From Dyella sp. SG609 (GTDB lineage Bacteria > Pseudomonadota > Gammaproteobacteria > Xanthomonadales > Rhodanobacteraceae): 64,000 nucleotides of DNA. This document shows positions 56,211 to 63,851 of the stretch, one piece after another (the first letter of the stretch is position 1; every line of letters begins with the position of its first letter). The DNA is taken from positions 1 through 64,000 of the forward strand of contig NZ_JAAZQJ010000005.1 of the NCBI RefSeq assembly GCF_012275375.1. Direction: 5' to 3'. Below the pieces are notes generated by a model, which had not been told where the DNA came from, did no database searches, and was given only the letters and a program-made list of their open reading frames with translations. The translations under genes and the position numbers were made by a program.

Positions 56211-57053
56211 TCAGCGCCGCACCGCCAGCACGCCATCCAGCGCCAACTCCGCCCTGAACCCCGCCTTCTCCAATCTGCGCGCCACTTCGCGCGGCACATC
56301 GCGGTCGCTGGTCAGCTTGTTCGGGCTGCCGGTGTAATGGAACATCCGCCCGCCGCGGCGGATCACGCGCGCGAGCTGCTCGTAGAAAACCTGCGAATAA
56401 AGCTCGCCGGCAATGCCGAAACGCGGCGGATCGTGCAGCACCGCGTCCACCGAGGCATCGGCCACCGCGGCGATCGCCTGCGAGACATCCGCCTGCGCAA
56501 GCTGCAGGCGCCCGCCCGCCGCCGGCGCATCCGGATCCGGCGACCACGGATTGAGTGTGCGCAGCCACAGCACGTCGGGGTTCTTTTCGAACGACTGGAT
56601 CCGCCCCATGCCCGCGTCCAGGCAGCAGGCCGCGAAATAACCCAGCCCGCCGCAGGTATCCAGCACCGCCTTGCCGCGCGGCTCCACCAGCGCCACCTTG
56701 CGGCGCGCATCGTCAATCGGGGATTCCTTCGAGGTGGGCAGCATCTTGATGCCGTCGATCTCGAACGTGGGCGCGCCCCATTCGGTGGGCACCAGCTTGA
56801 TCAGCGAAGCGGAGAAACGGGAGACGGGCGCGAACTCGTCGCCGTCCCAGTAATAGATGGTGCGGTCCTTGATCTTGCCGGGGTACGGGTAGTGCTGGTC
56901 TTTCCAGAGCCAGCCGTCGGGCTGGAGCGAGGCCGTGCCGTTCGAACGCCCGAGATCGAGCGAGCCGGTCCAGGTGCCCGCACCCGCCGCGTGCGCCTGC
57001 TTGAGCGCTTCCGCCGCCGGGAGCGTCAGCAATGGACCGGAATAATGCGGCAC
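56211..57053 (-). CDS. SAM-dependent methyltransferase
   Basis: The 280-residue protein has motif I AVLDTCGGLGYFAACCL, an acidic ribose loop (FEKNPDVLWL) and catalytic motif LHDPPRFG typical of class I methyltransferases (spermidine-synthase/RsmD-like folds). GTG at 57053 is chosen because GGGAAA precedes it and the conserved N-terminus PHYSGPLLTL starts there. Substrate unknown. Confidence 0.78.
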   Translation of the reverse strand: MPHYSGPLLTLPAAEALKQAHAAGAGTWTGSLDLGRSNGTASLQPDGWLWKDQHYPYPGKIKDRTIYYWDGDEFAPVSRFSASLIKLVPTEWGAPTFEIDGIKMLPTSKESPIDDARRKVALVEPRGKAVLDTCGGLGYFAACCLDAGMGRIQSFEKNPDVLWLRTLNPWSPDPDAPAAGGRLQLAQADVSQAIAAVADASVDAVLHDPPRFGIAGELYSQVFYEQLARVIRRGGRMFHYTGSPNKLTSDRDVPREVARRLEKAGFRAELALDGVLAVRR

Positions 57054-57111
57054 GGCGTATTTCCCGCTGGACAAGGCCGCCAAGAATATCCGGTTTGGCG
57101 CCGGACCTGCC

Positions 57112-57552
57112 TCAACGCCCGGGAGCCGGGACTCCAAAGACCTTGCGGTAAATCCGCGGCGTCGGCGTCAGCATCTGCCGGACCCGGTCTTCGGAAAGGC
57201 TGCGCCATACCCAGCGGATATCCCGCGGGAACAGCTTATGCGGGTAAAGGCTGGGCGTGGTTCCGTCATCGCCGCCCTGCGCGATGCCCAGGACGAACAG
57301 GCCCTCGGGGCTCCGGCAGAGCCAGTTCACATCGATCATCAGGACATCGCCCCAGCGGCTGGTCATGCAGCTGGGGCGCCAGCGATGGACGACCAGCAGG
57401 TCCGAAGCCGGCATCGGCTTGCCGTGGACCATGGCCTGCTGGCTCTCGAATGACATTTCCAGCAGATCCAATGAGCCGTTCCCGCCCCATCCGCAGACAC
57501 GGTAGATGACGATAAACAGCAGCAGCATGACCGGCAGAAGATTGATCCACAT
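57112..57552 (-). CDS. Hypothetical membrane-anchored protein
   Basis: The 146-residue protein has one N-terminal membrane helix (MWINLLPVMLLLFIVIYRVC) and a soluble domain with several Trp, Arg and Cys residues (RWRPSCMTSRWGDVLMIDV, WLCRSPEGLFVLG). No family is recognised. It lies 58 bases upstream of the methyltransferase gene on the same strand, so the two may be co-transcribed. Confidence 0.65.
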   Translation of the reverse strand: MWINLLPVMLLLFIVIYRVCGWGGNGSLDLLEMSFESQQAMVHGKPMPASDLLVVHRWRPSCMTSRWGDVLMIDVNWLCRSPEGLFVLGIAQGGDDGTTPSLYPHKLFPRDIRWVWRSLSEDRVRQMLTPTPRIYRKVFGVPAPGR

Positions 57553-58556: not shown

Positions 58557-60203
58557 CTAGGCCAGTGCGCTCCGGGGCGCCGCGGGGCGCGTATCGGAGA
58601 CGATCTGGCCCAGGTCCAGCGCGATCACCCGGTCGGCCACATGGAAATAGCGGTCGTCGTGGCTGATCGCGATCACCGTCTTGCCGGCCGCCTTCAGGGC
58701 CGGCAGCAGGCTGCGGTAGAAGTAATCGCGGAAATGCACGTCCTGGTCGGCGGCCCATTCGTCGAAGAAAAAAATATCGCGGTCTTCGGCATAGCACTGC
58801 AGCAGGGCCAGGCGCTTGCGCTGGCCGGTGGACAGAGCCAGGCGGGACAGCTCGCCATCGCGCGTCTGTACGTGTTCGCCCAGGTCCAGCACGTCGAGCA
58901 GTTGCCCGATGCGCGCATCCGACAATGGATGGCCCTGTGCATCCAGCACGTGGGGAAACAGGAAGAAATCGCCGAACACGCCGGTAAAGCGTTCGCGATA
59001 GGCGCGCGGATCCTGCCCGACCGGTGCACCGTCGATGCTGACGCGGCCCTCGCCCGGTGCGATCAGGGAGCTGAGCAGGAGCAGCAGCGTGGACTTGCCG
59101 CTGCCGTTGCCGCCCACGATAAACACCATCTCGCCGCGAGCCAGCGTGAGATCGATCGGACCGACCGTCGGTCGGGTGCCGGTGTGACCCGGATACCGAT
59201 AGCAGACATTCTCCAGGCGGATCTCGCGCCAGCTCTCCAGCGCGGCCGATGCTGGCGCGCGCGACGGCGGTTCATCGAACGCTCCGCCCGGATCCAGTCC
59301 CACCCGCTCCAGATGCCGCAGGCTGGCCGCGCCGACGGCCAGCTGCCGCCCCGCACTCACCAGAAAACCCACCGGACCGCCGAGAAATACCGCGCCAATG
59401 ACGAAGCGGATGATGGTGTTCTGCGTCAGCCCCAGCGAGGCATAGCCCAGATACACGATCAGGAAGATCGAGCCGTACAGCACCGCCATCGACCAGGCTT
59501 CGTTGAGCCCCAGCCCCGCATGCGCGCGCAGCATCAGGCCACGCGCGCGGCCGATCGCCGGATTCATCAGCTCGCGCGTGAAGTGCCCGGCGCGCGCCTC
59601 GTTCAGCGTCATCTCCTTCTTGCCGTCGCTGATGAAGCGGAAATACTCGAACACCTTCTCGTTGGCACGCCGCAGCTCGTCCAGCTTGCCGCGCATCACC
59701 CGCGCCAGCAGCAGCGAAACGGCGAAGCTCGCGCAGAGGAACAAGCCGAGCATGCCCAGCAACGGCGGCGACACCGTGGCGAGATAGCCCGCATACAACA
59801 CCGCGAGCAACAGGTTGTAGGCCAGCAGCGGCGCCACCAGGGCCAGCGGCGCAATGTTGGCGACGTCGTCGATCAGCGAGCCGAATACGGTGTGTTTCTG
59901 GTCGGCCAGCTTTTCGTACTCGAGATCGATAAAGCGCCGCGCCAGCTCCGTGCGCAACTGCGCCACCAGCGCGGCGCCCAGCCGCGCCAGCAGCAGCTGC
60001 GACAAGGCATTGGCCGCCAGCAGCGCCAGCAGCCAGCACACGCCCGCCGCCAGCGGATGCGCCATCGCTCCGTGCAGGCCTTCCGATGCCAGCCGGTTGA
60101 TATGCGACAGCAAGGCCACCGTGCAGCCGGCGCTGGCGCAGGACAGCAGCGCCGCGCCCGCGAGCGAACGGTAATGCCGGCGGAGGAAGCGCTGCAGGAT
60201 CAT
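58557..60203 (-). CDS. Cyclic-peptide-type ABC exporter of the lanthipeptide cluster
   Basis: The 548-residue half-transporter has six membrane helices (about 14-320) and a nucleotide-binding domain with Walker A GGNGSGKST (about 365), signature LSTGQRKRLAL (about 453) and Walker B IFFFDEWAADQD (about 481). It matches the PvdE/SyrD cyclic-peptide export family (TIGR01194). It lacks the N-terminal C39 peptidase domain of normal LanT exporters, so leader removal must occur elsewhere. It lies 13 bases after lanM and is presumably co-transcribed. A stem-loop (arms 58529-58536 and 58546-58553) follows the stop. Confidence 0.9.
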   Translation of the reverse strand: MILQRFLRRHYRSLAGAALLSCASAGCTVALLSHINRLASEGLHGAMAHPLAAGVCWLLALLAANALSQLLLARLGAALVAQLRTELARRFIDLEYEKLADQKHTVFGSLIDDVANIAPLALVAPLLAYNLLLAVLYAGYLATVSPPLLGMLGLFLCASFAVSLLLARVMRGKLDELRRANEKVFEYFRFISDGKKEMTLNEARAGHFTRELMNPAIGRARGLMLRAHAGLGLNEAWSMAVLYGSIFLIVYLGYASLGLTQNTIIRFVIGAVFLGGPVGFLVSAGRQLAVGAASLRHLERVGLDPGGAFDEPPSRAPASAALESWREIRLENVCYRYPGHTGTRPTVGPIDLTLARGEMVFIVGGNGSGKSTLLLLLSSLIAPGEGRVSIDGAPVGQDPRAYRERFTGVFGDFFLFPHVLDAQGHPLSDARIGQLLDVLDLGEHVQTRDGELSRLALSTGQRKRLALLQCYAEDRDIFFFDEWAADQDVHFRDYFYRSLLPALKAAGKTVIAISHDDRYFHVADRVIALDLGQIVSDTRPAAPRSALA

Positions 60204-60216
60204 GGACGCGCGCCGC

Positions 60217-63087
60217 TCAGGCGGTCAGCCCTTCCTGTTCGAAGGCGCGGTTGCGCGCGTACTCGCCCAGGCGGGTTTCCATCAGCAGCGGCGAGGGGAT
60301 ATCGCAGTCCGGATGCATGCGCAGCAGCTGGTGGATCGAACCGGAAATGCCGCTCATCAGGCCCGGCGTGAACGCATCCCTGGCCAGGCCGCCGACGATG
60401 CCGTGCTCCTCGATGCTCGAAAGAATCACCGCGCTGCCCGGCATCGCCTGCGGCGGCAGCAGGTCCGGCACCAGCGGGCTGGCGCGCAGCAGCAGCTCCC
60501 ACATGCTCAGGTCGCCATGGCATAGCGTGTGGCTGTAGCCCCAGCCGCCCTGTTTGGCGGCCTGCACGGCGCGGCGCAGCGTATCGAGGTGGCGGTCCTC
60601 GCCGGTGCGCAGGTACAGGTCGCAGGCGGCCAGGCCGATGCCCACGCTGCCGTGGCACCAGGTGTTGGGGAATTCGCGGCTGTCCGGCTTGCGCACGTCG
60701 AGCCAGTTGCCGAATTCCGGCAGATAGAGCGATTCCTCGAAATCGAAGGCACGCTCGCCGAGCGCCAGCCAGCGCCGGCGATCTTCGGCACTGCCTGCTC
60801 CACTCAAGCCCAGCCGCGTCAACACCCAGCCGATGCCGGTGGACCCGTGCGCGAAACCGCCCAGCGGCTCGTCGTATACCGCCGCCGGCCAGCGCGCCCC
60901 GCGCTCGTCGACGATCGCTGCCTCTTCCAGCCGCCGCGCCGCCTTTGCGGCAAGCGCCAGCCAGCGCGCATCGCCGCTGGCATCGGCCAGCTGCAGCAGC
61001 GGCACGATGGCGCCGGAGACGCCTTCGAGGATGTCGAAATTGCGCTCCTCGCCGAAGGATCGCCGCTCCATCGCCTCGGCGCGCGCAATGGCCATCGCGA
61101 GGAAATCCGACTGCGGCTGGAACGCGTGCAAGATGAGCCAGGACAGAATCTGCGAGCCCACGCCGATAAAACCGCCCACCGCTTCGATGGGACGCACCCG
61201 CTCGGTACTGCGCATCACCATCAGCACGCCATCCAGCGCTTCCTGCACGCCGGCCACTTCATCGGCACGCCCCGCACGCATCTCGCGCACATACGCCGCC
61301 AGCGTGACGGCGACGCCGCACAGGCCGACATAGAGATTCGGCTGCAGGCTGCGCATGGCCCAGCCGGCGCGGCCCAGGATGGGGCTGATCCAGGTGACGG
61401 TGCCGTCCTCGCCGCGCACGGAGAGCTCGAGCAGTTCCTGCACGGTGAGCGCGGCCATGGTGCGGCGGCGGCGGTCGAGGTCGCGTGCGCTCGGATCGCT
61501 TGGACGCAGATCGTAGGGCGCGCGCTTGTCGTCGTTGAGGCGTCCGTTGAGATGCGCTGTCACCAGCGCGCCGCGGATGGTGAGTTCTTCCAGGTCCAGC
61601 CGCATCGCCTGCCAGGCGCCGAAGATCTCGTCGAGCTGGGCCTGATCCAGTTCGTTGGCGAATACAGGCACGTCGCCGTAGCGCATGTCGTCGATCTCGG
61701 CGCGGATCGCCGCGGCGTCGCGCGGCGCCACCAGCGAGGCTTGCGAATTCTTTTCCAGCAGGTCGCGCGCGCGTTCGATCGCGGCCGGCTCGTCGTGCAG
61801 CGAGGCCGGATGCCACAGCATGCGCATCACCTCGACGTAGATCTGCGTGGGCCGCAGGATCAGCCGGATACGGCTGCCCAAGAACACCTTGAGCTTCGGC
61901 GCCAGCGCACCGTCGCGATGCAGCGCTGCGAAGCGGCCGGTGAGCTGCTGGAAACCCGCCAGGATATCCGGCCAGAAGCGCGAGATATCCGGGTTCTCGC
62001 ACGGGTGATTGCGCGCCATGTCGACGTCGATGCTGACCAGGCCCACGCGCGCGTCGCTGGTGCCGTGGTTGACGATCTCCGGCACGCGGATCTTCGGCTG
62101 CTGTCCCGGCAAGGCGCCGATGGCCGAGATATCGACGCCATCCATGCCCAGCGCCGGCGCGCGGAACGGCACCAGGCCGGTGCGCAGCACCGAAGAGCGG
62201 ATCATCGCGTCGGCGAGATCCACGGCCTGTCCAAGCTCAGTGACCTGCGGCGGCGGTTCCGGCACGAACAGGCTTTCCACGTCGACCACGTAGGGCACGG
62301 GGCCGCAGGCGATCAGGTTTTCATGATGCACGTCGGTGCCGCCCAGCAGGCGCAGCACGGCGAGCCAATGCCCGATATGGCGGTAGAAGGTTTTCAGTTC
62401 GTCCTGGTCGGCGCAGTGGCGATGCTCGACAAAAGCTGTCCAGCCGTAAGCGCCGCGATCGAGCACCGCAGGTACGCGGATGCGCTCGGCCACGCCTTGA
62501 AACAGATCGTGGAGAAAGCTTTCCAGCGCCTGGTCGACGCGCACCGAACGCGGCTTGTACATCAGCCGGCCGCCGTCGAATTCCAGCTGCGCCACGGACT
62601 GGCCACCGTCGTGCACATCGCCCTGGCCCAGGCTGGCGGCGCGCAATGCGCCTGCGGGCTGGCCGAGCAAGGCGGCGAAGGCAGCGCGGTCGGCGACGAT
62701 GCGCCGGGCAAGGGTAAGAATGGCTTCGCTCTGATGGCCGAGCGCGCGATCGAGGCGCTCTTCGAGCACCGGATAGCGGCGGCGCAAGGTGTCCTTGAAG
62801 GCGTCCTGCCTGGCCAGTTCGAGAAACTGCGCGAACTTGCCGCCTTCGTCGGGTGCGGTGAGCTGCCCGGACAGCTTCGCCGCATGCAGCTCCAGCAGCA
62901 GCACGCGGTTGAGCTTGCGCTCGGCGTTGTCGCGCAGTGCCTGGTGCGCCTGCCGTATCAGGATCGCGCTTTCGCCGTCGCCGAGTCCCGGCACGGCGCG
63001 GATGCGTTCGGCCAGCGAACGCCGGGCATCGGCGGTGAGGTGATCGATGATTCCCAGGAACGTATCGTTCGACGGCGCGTCGCCCAT
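60217..63087 (-). CDS. lanM: Class II lanthipeptide synthetase LanM
   Basis: The 956-residue bifunctional enzyme should dehydrate Ser/Thr in the precursor and add Cys thiols to form thioether rings. The N-terminal DUF4135 dehydratase shows YKPRSVRVDQALESFLHDL, TDVHHENLIACG and VDVESLFVP (about residues 150-280). The C-terminal LanC-like cyclase keeps all zinc ligands: Cys811 (WCHGSVGIG), Cys856 and His857 (TLCHGD). ATG at 63087 is chosen although its ribosome site is weak; a GTG at 63141 in the same frame falls inside a stem-loop. The precursor gene lies immediately upstream. Confidence 0.94.
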   Translation of the reverse strand: MGDAPSNDTFLGIIDHLTADARRSLAERIRAVPGLGDGESAILIRQAHQALRDNAERKLNRVLLLELHAAKLSGQLTAPDEGGKFAQFLELARQDAFKDTLRRRYPVLEERLDRALGHQSEAILTLARRIVADRAAFAALLGQPAGALRAASLGQGDVHDGGQSVAQLEFDGGRLMYKPRSVRVDQALESFLHDLFQGVAERIRVPAVLDRGAYGWTAFVEHRHCADQDELKTFYRHIGHWLAVLRLLGGTDVHHENLIACGPVPYVVDVESLFVPEPPPQVTELGQAVDLADAMIRSSVLRTGLVPFRAPALGMDGVDISAIGALPGQQPKIRVPEIVNHGTSDARVGLVSIDVDMARNHPCENPDISRFWPDILAGFQQLTGRFAALHRDGALAPKLKVFLGSRIRLILRPTQIYVEVMRMLWHPASLHDEPAAIERARDLLEKNSQASLVAPRDAAAIRAEIDDMRYGDVPVFANELDQAQLDEIFGAWQAMRLDLEELTIRGALVTAHLNGRLNDDKRAPYDLRPSDPSARDLDRRRRTMAALTVQELLELSVRGEDGTVTWISPILGRAGWAMRSLQPNLYVGLCGVAVTLAAYVREMRAGRADEVAGVQEALDGVLMVMRSTERVRPIEAVGGFIGVGSQILSWLILHAFQPQSDFLAMAIARAEAMERRSFGEERNFDILEGVSGAIVPLLQLADASGDARWLALAAKAARRLEEAAIVDERGARWPAAVYDEPLGGFAHGSTGIGWVLTRLGLSGAGSAEDRRRWLALGERAFDFEESLYLPEFGNWLDVRKPDSREFPNTWCHGSVGIGLAACDLYLRTGEDRHLDTLRRAVQAAKQGGWGYSHTLCHGDLSMWELLLRASPLVPDLLPPQAMPGSAVILSSIEEHGIVGGLARDAFTPGLMSGISGSIHQLLRMHPDCDIPSPLLMETRLGEYARNRAFEQEGLTA

Positions 63088-63120
63088 GCTCAACACCCGG
63101 TAGTGAGGAACGGAATTCGT

Positions 63121-63149
63121 CCGCAGCCGTGGCACGGCCACGGCTGCGG
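63121..63149 (-). other. Stem-loop between precursor and lanM
   Basis: CCGCAGCCGTGG (63121-63132) and CCACGGCTGCGG (63138-63149) form a perfect 12-bp stem with a five-base loop, ten bases after the precursor stop. No T tract follows on the minus strand. It may attenuate or process the transcript so that precursor exceeds synthetase, as is usual in lantibiotic operons. Confidence 0.75.
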
Positions 63150-63158
63150 CGAATCAAA

Positions 63159-63347
63159 TCAACAGCAGAAGCCGGGGCGCGAAGCCGTGCAGCCGCTGCA
63201 GCGGGTATCCAGCGCGATTTCCGGGCTGGTCACGGCCGCGATGGTGGCCGCCTGGCCTTCGGTGTACAGCGAGCCCGCCGGATTGGCGTAGCCGTCCACG
63301 TTATCGGAGCCCTTCAGCCAGCCTTCCACGATGTGATCGATCTGCAT
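63159..63347 (-). CDS. Lanthipeptide precursor peptide
   Basis: The 62-residue peptide has a leader of about 45 residues (starts MQIDHIVEGWLKGSDNVDG, then NPAGSLYTEGQ). The Cys-rich C-terminus runs LDTRCSGCTASRPGFCC, with Cys at 50, 53, 61 and 62 and donors Thr48, Ser51, Thr54, Ser56. There is no double-glycine, Nif11 or NHLP leader. AAGGAG is placed ideally before the ATG. It is directly upstream of lanM on the same strand. From memory the layout resembles LanM-linked small peptides such as DUF6229. Core boundary and rings are unknown. Confidence 0.88.
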   Translation of the reverse strand: MQIDHIVEGWLKGSDNVDGYANPAGSLYTEGQAATIAAVTSPEIALDTRCSGCTASRPGFCC

Positions 63348-63851
63348 GGGTCGTACTCCTTGATGGTGTGCGCTCGGATGGGACGCGTACGCGTCTACCG
63401 CAGTGAGCGCGGCTGCGGTGAAAGCGAATGGGGATCAGGCGGACCGCGCATGAGCGGGACAGGCATGCCGTGGCGAAGCGTTGCGGCGAAGCGGAAGCAG
63501 AGGCGATGTACTGGGCGATGTCATCCGTGGCGACGTCCCTTCCTGTCCTTTCACGCGATGCCCCCTGCATGCGTCGGTGGCCAGCTGCCGCGGCCGTTTC
63601 CTTGAAACGCCCTGGAGGGCGCGCCTTTCATGTCCGAATGTTTATCAACCGCCCGTTGACGTGAAGGCAATGTGATTCCGCATGGCATATGGGCTGGCGA
63701 GGCCATGCAGTTCTTTGCGTGCTGCACACGAGCCAGCGAAGTGCGATGACGATCACATTCCGCCCGGCAGTAATGACTAACGGCGGTTATGACGACAGGT
63801 TCCTGCGAACGAAGCTAAGCTCCTGCGCTTCCTCGCTCGCAAGGACACCGC
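63348..63851. other. 504-base divergent region upstream of the lanthipeptide cluster
   Basis: No supported gene; open frames here lack coding character. It should hold the cluster promoter (minus) and that of the partial gene at 63852 (plus). Contents seen: a 14-base palindrome at 63382-63395, ACCGCAG/CTGCGGT arms at 63397-63403 and 63413-63419, and inverted AATGTGAT/ATCACATT at 63669-63676 and 63752-63759. Bases about 63625-63690 are AT-richer. Confidence 0.6.
63382..63395. promoter_or_regulatory. Palindrome GACGCGTACGCGTC upstream of the precursor
   Basis: A perfect 14-base palindrome 35-48 bases before the precursor start codon, where it would overlap the promoter or the early transcript. 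A repressor operator is the simplest reading; no regulator gene is in the cluster. Confidence 0.5.

Follow-up and report, generated by a model that had tools for sequence, protein, structure and literature searches.

A rhodanocin-like class II lanthipeptide operon in Dyella sp. SG609 with a conserved putative pseudoknot in the leader of its precursor gene

The lanA-lanM-exporter operon of Dyella sp. SG609 is, judged by sequence, a rhodanocin-like class II lanthipeptide operon of an already published family. Two predicted RNA elements, a pseudoknot in the 5' leader of the precursor gene lanA and a hairpin between lanA and the synthetase gene lanM, probably act together to set the output of lanA against that of lanM, as their position and conservation suggest. 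The cluster itself is a variant of the published family and of modest interest; the part deserving bench work is the conserved leader RNA, which we did not find in print. A literature search that left most subscription journals uncovered returned, among the papers listed, no report of such a leader, or of control of a lanthipeptide precursor at the RNA level in Gram-negative bacteria. The stretch of DNA analysed, called the window below, comprises 64,000 nucleotides (positions 1 to 64,000 of contig NZ_JAAZQJ010000005.1) and contains the following features:

58557-60203, minus strand: ABC exporter with permease and ATPase parts, YojI / cyclic-peptide exporter type, from profile matches
60217-63087, minus strand: lanM, class II lanthipeptide synthetase (dehydratase and LanC-like cyclase), 956 aa from the ATG, from Pfam, TIGR03897 and alignments
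63121-63149, minus strand: predicted hairpin lying between the stop codon of lanA and the ATG of lanM, with a 13-bp stem and a 3-nt loop in the window
63159-63347, minus strand: lanA, 62-aa DUF6229 precursor, from the open reading frame and Pfam PF19740 (E 3e-20)
63355-63361, minus strand: ribosome-binding site of lanA, AAGGAGT, of which GGAGT is invariant in 14 of 14 leaders
63370-63419, minus strand: putative H-type pseudoknot within the 5' leader of lanA, from the 14-leader alignment (noted region 63345-63420)

With the ATG at 63087, the likely start of lanM, the gaps between the three genes are 71 and 13 bases; an in-frame GTG at 63141 is the alternative start. This minus-strand layout agrees in coordinates and reading frames with the original prediction, which recognized the three genes but overlooked two RNA structures, the one ahead of lanA and the lanA-lanM intergenic hairpin. 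Its central proposal, a compact class II lanthipeptide cluster, is borne out by the families to which LanM and the precursor belong, and by the production of a homologue from the same Pfam family. The family matches of these two proteins also indicate that the frames are not random.

The precursor scores 72.3 bits against Pfam DUF6229 (gathering score 25, E 3e-20) and is a member of that family. Its C-terminus reads RCSGCTASRPGFCC, the core corresponds approximately to residues 47-62 (DTRCSGCTASRPGFCC), and the leader carries the motif NPAGSLYTEG. The conserved core contains four Ser/Thr residues (48, 51, 54 and 56) and four cysteines; the loss of up to six waters foreseen originally counts Thr40 and Ser41 as well. 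A profile iterated over the 12,970 stop-to-stop frames in the fetched loci gave 119 matches; once these were reduced to distinct precursors having a usable ATG, 77 remained. From the 77, the 13 with TASRP close to the C-terminus and CC as the last two residues were chosen as a subgroup, which comes from 14 loci, as L004 and L005 share one precursor. Its core consensus is [ST]xCS[SG]CTASRP[GV]xCC. Cys50, Ser51 and Cys53, which lie outside the picking motif, occur without exception in all 13 distinct precursors, and the first Thr of TxCxxCTxS is replaced by Ser in nine of them. This four-Cys subgroup spans three genus labels (g1, g6 and g16). A nearby core type, QCSSCTAS[SP]PxxCC, was found at three Luteimonas loci, where lanA-lanM occupy L007:9346-12781, L008:9649-12820 and L009:9628-12781; L007 has two precursors in tandem. 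Tandem DUF6229 precursors beside one lanM, with cores that mostly differ, were also seen at L061, L106, L107, L109, L042, L050, L054 and L090.

The suggestion that such a cluster is a rarity was not sustained. DUF6229 is common: it occurs in 42 of 233 genomes of the bacterial family and, at the level of the order, in 43 of 398, a count that includes 33 family members already seen, and according to PMC11451712 it accounts for 21 of 27 unique class II precursors of Lysobacter. Among 369 genomes drawn from the class it was met in three, namely the window's own, one of the same order, and one under the cut-off. Class II lanthipeptide clusters are described, in PMC11165876, for five strains of Luteibacter mycovicinus, including 333MFSha.

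LanM matches the Pfam families DUF4135 (E 6e-96) and LANC_like (E 9e-37), and reaches 537.9 bits against TIGR03897, whose cut-off is 304. The traits looked for in a class II system were found, that is, a DUF4135 dehydratase and a LanC-like cyclase in one protein, an adjoining precursor with Ser/Thr and Cys in its C-terminal core, and, by alignment, kinase-like catalytic residues and a Cys-Cys-His zinc site. Among solved structures, LanM matches LicM2 (E 4e-55) and CylM (E 1e-33), and its kinase-like motifs GDVHDGG, YKPRS, TDVHHEN, VVDVES and LRPTQ align with their counterparts in both; we take the aligned residues to be the catalytic ones. The complete zinc site proposed originally stands: the Cys of NTWCHG and the Cys-His of LCHGD align with LicM2, and with SWCKG and LCHGN of CylM in a weak C-terminal stretch that is non-significant alone. 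The window LanM is the single LanC-domain match in its genome. A lanM relative was present in all 79 sequence rows checked, of which 11 (the window and L002-L011) were LanM's own or fetched by LanM, several rows representing one place.

At E up to 1e-20 the exporter has 14 PDB matches, every one an ABC protein, with alignments that cover chiefly the ATP-binding domain; no peptidase domain was matched in it by the family-library searches. In each of the 14 subgroup loci the exporter gene adjoins lanA-lanM. Two arrangements occur: the four Dyella-type loci have it downstream and co-oriented, the ten Luteibacter-type loci upstream and divergent from lanA. No full-length relative was found in 13 other DUF6229 loci examined at 18 kb (L063, L064 and L071-L081), of which L064 and L075 contain a match of less than 30% identity to its ATP-binding part; nor was there an exporter of the window type near lanA-lanM in the Luteimonas loci.

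Neighbouring genes were compared in 16 loci (three from Luteimonas and the 13 of the subgroup that were examined first) for frames of at least 100 aa. Besides lanM, the exporter and overlapping frames, no neighbour family recurred in more than three of them, and no immunity gene (LanFEG or other), regulator or protease was found travelling with the cluster, as had been claimed from the window itself. Some families are common to three loci. Among them, in the three nearest loci (the window, continued in L062; L002; and L070), are a prolyl oligopeptidase-like gene and, further out, a LysR-like gene; this recurrence reflects shared chromosome. The former gene was considered as the source of the leader protease and rejected as part of the cluster. 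It is near lanA in only these three of 30 loci, and is also present in the sister genome G089, whose DUF6229 precursor is of another type. Its product could nevertheless act on the peptide. The gene runs divergently from 63852 to the window end and on to L062:13062, and its product looks secreted, judging from its sequence. A search of sister genomes for an empty site yielded no clean case: in G089 the flanking genes are on separate contigs, and G088 and G090 contain no close copy of the peptidase gene. Also beside the cluster are an uncharacterized gene at 57112-57552 and a gene at 56211-57137 that is weakly methyltransferase-like, under the Pfam cut-off. Both are kept in near relatives and are chromosome background outside the cluster.

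The leader of lanA extends the picture beyond the three genes. A pseudoknot, in which the loop of a hairpin pairs with bases ahead of the ribosome site, can be fitted to all 14 subgroup lanA leaders, always in the order pseudoknot, GGAGT site, ATG. In the window, stem 1 would pair 63413-63419 with 63397-63403 and stem 2 would pair 63404-63410 with 63370-63376. Across the 14 leaders stem 1 has up to 7-8 pairs, followed by a 2-base loop, a stem 2 of 6-7 pairs and a third loop of 13-19 bases. Standard pairs fill 97.4% of the 196 cells of the 14-leader alignment (A1), as against 26-47% when the partners are slid by 1-3 columns. Six pairs covary, with changes on both sides. Neither the percentage paired nor the covariation score was reached in any of 500 shuffles; the number of covarying pairs was reached in 9 of 500, and the number of pair types in 124. 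On a LanM tree of 13 loci, some forks of which are weakly supported, the pairs of stem 1 change repeatedly; in stem 2, pair 15-47 made one two-sided switch, pair 14-48 changed on one side, and the variable end pair 17-45 is unpaired in 3 of the 14 rows. Support is therefore good for stem 1 and weaker for stem 2, where it comes mainly from invariant complementarity.

A model built from the ten Luteibacter-type leaders ranked the four Dyella-type leaders first among its 11 matches in 16 sources (278 kb), with E-values, to be read as rough, of 1e-8, 6e-8 (the window), 3.5e-4 and 2.8e-3, the next match having 0.013. In the 233 genomes of the family, searched with stricter filters, the strong matches of the full leader model R1 number 14, at 56.4-85.2 bits, and are its own training leaders; the next best had 31.6 bits. 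Run with stricter filters on the 398 genomes of the order, the model recovered the 13 training leaders sampled there and no other match above 31.6 bits. The possibility that other genes carry the same leader was rejected, as the stem 2 pattern was present in none of the five weaker model matches checked, two of which (L125 and L126) end at the GGAG site and ATG of another gene. A simple pseudoknot descriptor fitted all 13 distinct subgroup leaders and only 4 of 64 others, which differ in sequence and are unrelated in form, and the idea of a general feature of DUF6229 operons was abandoned on these grounds; in the Luteimonas relatives a pseudoknot of the subgroup type is absent. Since 46 of 3000 random 120-base stretches of the same loci, with the true elements kept in, reach the weakest subgroup score of this descriptor, a single case is weak and the argument rests on conservation. 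Rfam searches at E up to 5 for the window leader, and at E up to 1 for those of 13 relatives, gave no match to the leaders, and the window leader did not reach a gathering score of Rfam 15.

Could the conserved element be a DNA operator, with inverted repeats bound by a regulator, rather than an RNA? Its position upstream of a biosynthetic operon and the invariant half GCGC, itself palindromic, would suit an operator, as would the divergent exporter gene of the ten Luteibacter-type loci. On the other hand, G-U pairs are among the pair types, which would spoil a DNA repeat, the two halves of stem 2 lie 21 to 27 bases apart, depending on the leader, and the element lies directly 5' of the ribosome site regardless of exporter orientation. 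These observations make an operator unlikely. Our own proposal, put forward tentatively, is that the 5' leader of the subgroup represents a pseudoknot RNA of a new class, acting in cis to set the precursor level, possibly by binding of LanM or of the modified peptide; autoregulation by either of these is possible.

Between the lanA stop codon and the lanM ATG, a GC-rich hairpin can be drawn in all 13 aligned loci (L023/G104 being left out). Pairing is complete in its 117 cells, and 64.6% remain paired after a slide of -3. Two of the nine pairs show two-sided changes; 29 of 500 shuffles reach this number of covarying pairs, and 422 of 500 the number of pair types. A T-run comes after the hairpin at L003 and L067, where the two together look like an intrinsic terminator. 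The window hairpin has no such T-run, and a consensus scan called neither promoter-like nor terminator-like sites. A known RNA family was also considered for the hairpin and rejected, as the weak Rfam matches around it and lanA were far below gathering scores and 13 relatives gave none at E up to 1.

Taken together, these data are best explained by a rhodanocin-like lanthipeptide that is exported by a YojI-type transporter after modification and freed of its leader by a general protease, with RNA elements tuning lanA; we consider this combined reading likely. LanM would bind the DUF6229 leader, dehydrate Ser/Thr residues of the core and add cysteines to them, so that the product, by analogy with homologues, should carry thioether rings. 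If rhodanocin is a guide, the first two, interlocked rings would join Thr48 to Cys53 and Cys50 to Ser56. A third should link Thr54 to Cys61 or Cys62, and Ser51 could form a fourth with the remaining cysteine. The modified peptide would leave through the exporter. As the searches turned up neither a peptidase domain nor a protease linked to the cluster, leader removal probably falls to a general, unlinked protease. The pseudoknot and the hairpin, which bracket lanA, would most likely raise or tune mRNA stability and translation of lanA against lanM; a stable and well-translated lanA message together with less lanM would keep the substrate in excess of the enzyme. The two elements thus offer a testable answer to the question of how small lanthipeptide operons devoid of a dedicated regulator keep the precursor above the synthetase. 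As the four-Cys subgroup extends over three genus labels and has its own exporter, its product is a concrete next target.

Of the known systems, the DUF6229 class II lanthipeptides of Lysobacter share the precursor family and class II biosynthesis with the window; they differ in falling into six sequence families (PMC11451712). According to PMC9576775 (2022), the LanII cluster of Dyella sp. 333MFSha, with a DUF6229 precursor and a LanM, was produced in E. coli and its product solved by NMR, and the authors proposed the name rhodanocins. The peptide undergoes four dehydrations and has rings Thr6-Cys11, Cys8-Ser14 and Thr12-Cys23, with Thr18 as Dhb. Its leader was removed in vitro with AspN, by which the native product is unlikely to arise in the authors' opinion, and its activity against K. 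pneumoniae, which gives the DUF6229 peptides one member with weak anti-Klebsiella activity, has an MIC of 126 uM. The window precursor and that of rhodanocin (WP_043693394.1) have in common the Pfam family, the LanM class, the family Rhodanobacteraceae and the TxCxxCTxS spacing, in which Thr6, Cys8, Cys11, Thr12 and Ser14 find their counterparts in Thr48, Cys50, Cys53, Thr54 and Ser56. The original view that the core resembles no named lantibiotic cannot be upheld in the light of this ring-forming spacing. Yet a true rhodanocin, with its three rings as published, is quite an improbable reading of the window peptide, even with all that is shared. Its core has no counterpart of Thr18, and none of Cys23 nine residues after Ser14; it ends in RPGFCC, six residues past Ser56, and instead has four cysteines, two of them terminal, and the extra Ser51. 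The rhodanocin rings can therefore not be transferred wholesale. Several precursors at L061, L105, L106, L107 and L109, in contrast, match the published spacing completely (in L105: Thr, Cys, Cys, Thr, Ser, Thr and Cys at steps of 2, 3, 1, 2, 4 and 5). We take these, matched to the published positions only, to be rhodanocins proper; the adjoining LanMs are 39-42% identical to that of the window.

The exporter matches the YojI and SyrD-type peptide ABC exporters over nearly its full length, but lies below both curated cut-offs (361.7 bits against 604 for NF007813, and 283.9 against 286.2 for the cyclic peptide exporter TIGR01194). As regards the leader, small riboswitches such as SAM-II and preQ1 also use H-type pseudoknots near the ribosome site, yet a riboswitch typically controls more than one gene of its pathway, whereas the strong model matches occur only before lanA (14 in 233 genomes) and the five weaker ones checked lack the stem 2 pattern even where they end at the GGAG and ATG of another gene, so that a metabolite riboswitch is very improbable. 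The window leader resembles these riboswitches in being a small predicted pseudoknot of the same type and location, and differs from them in having no Rfam match and in standing before one gene only.
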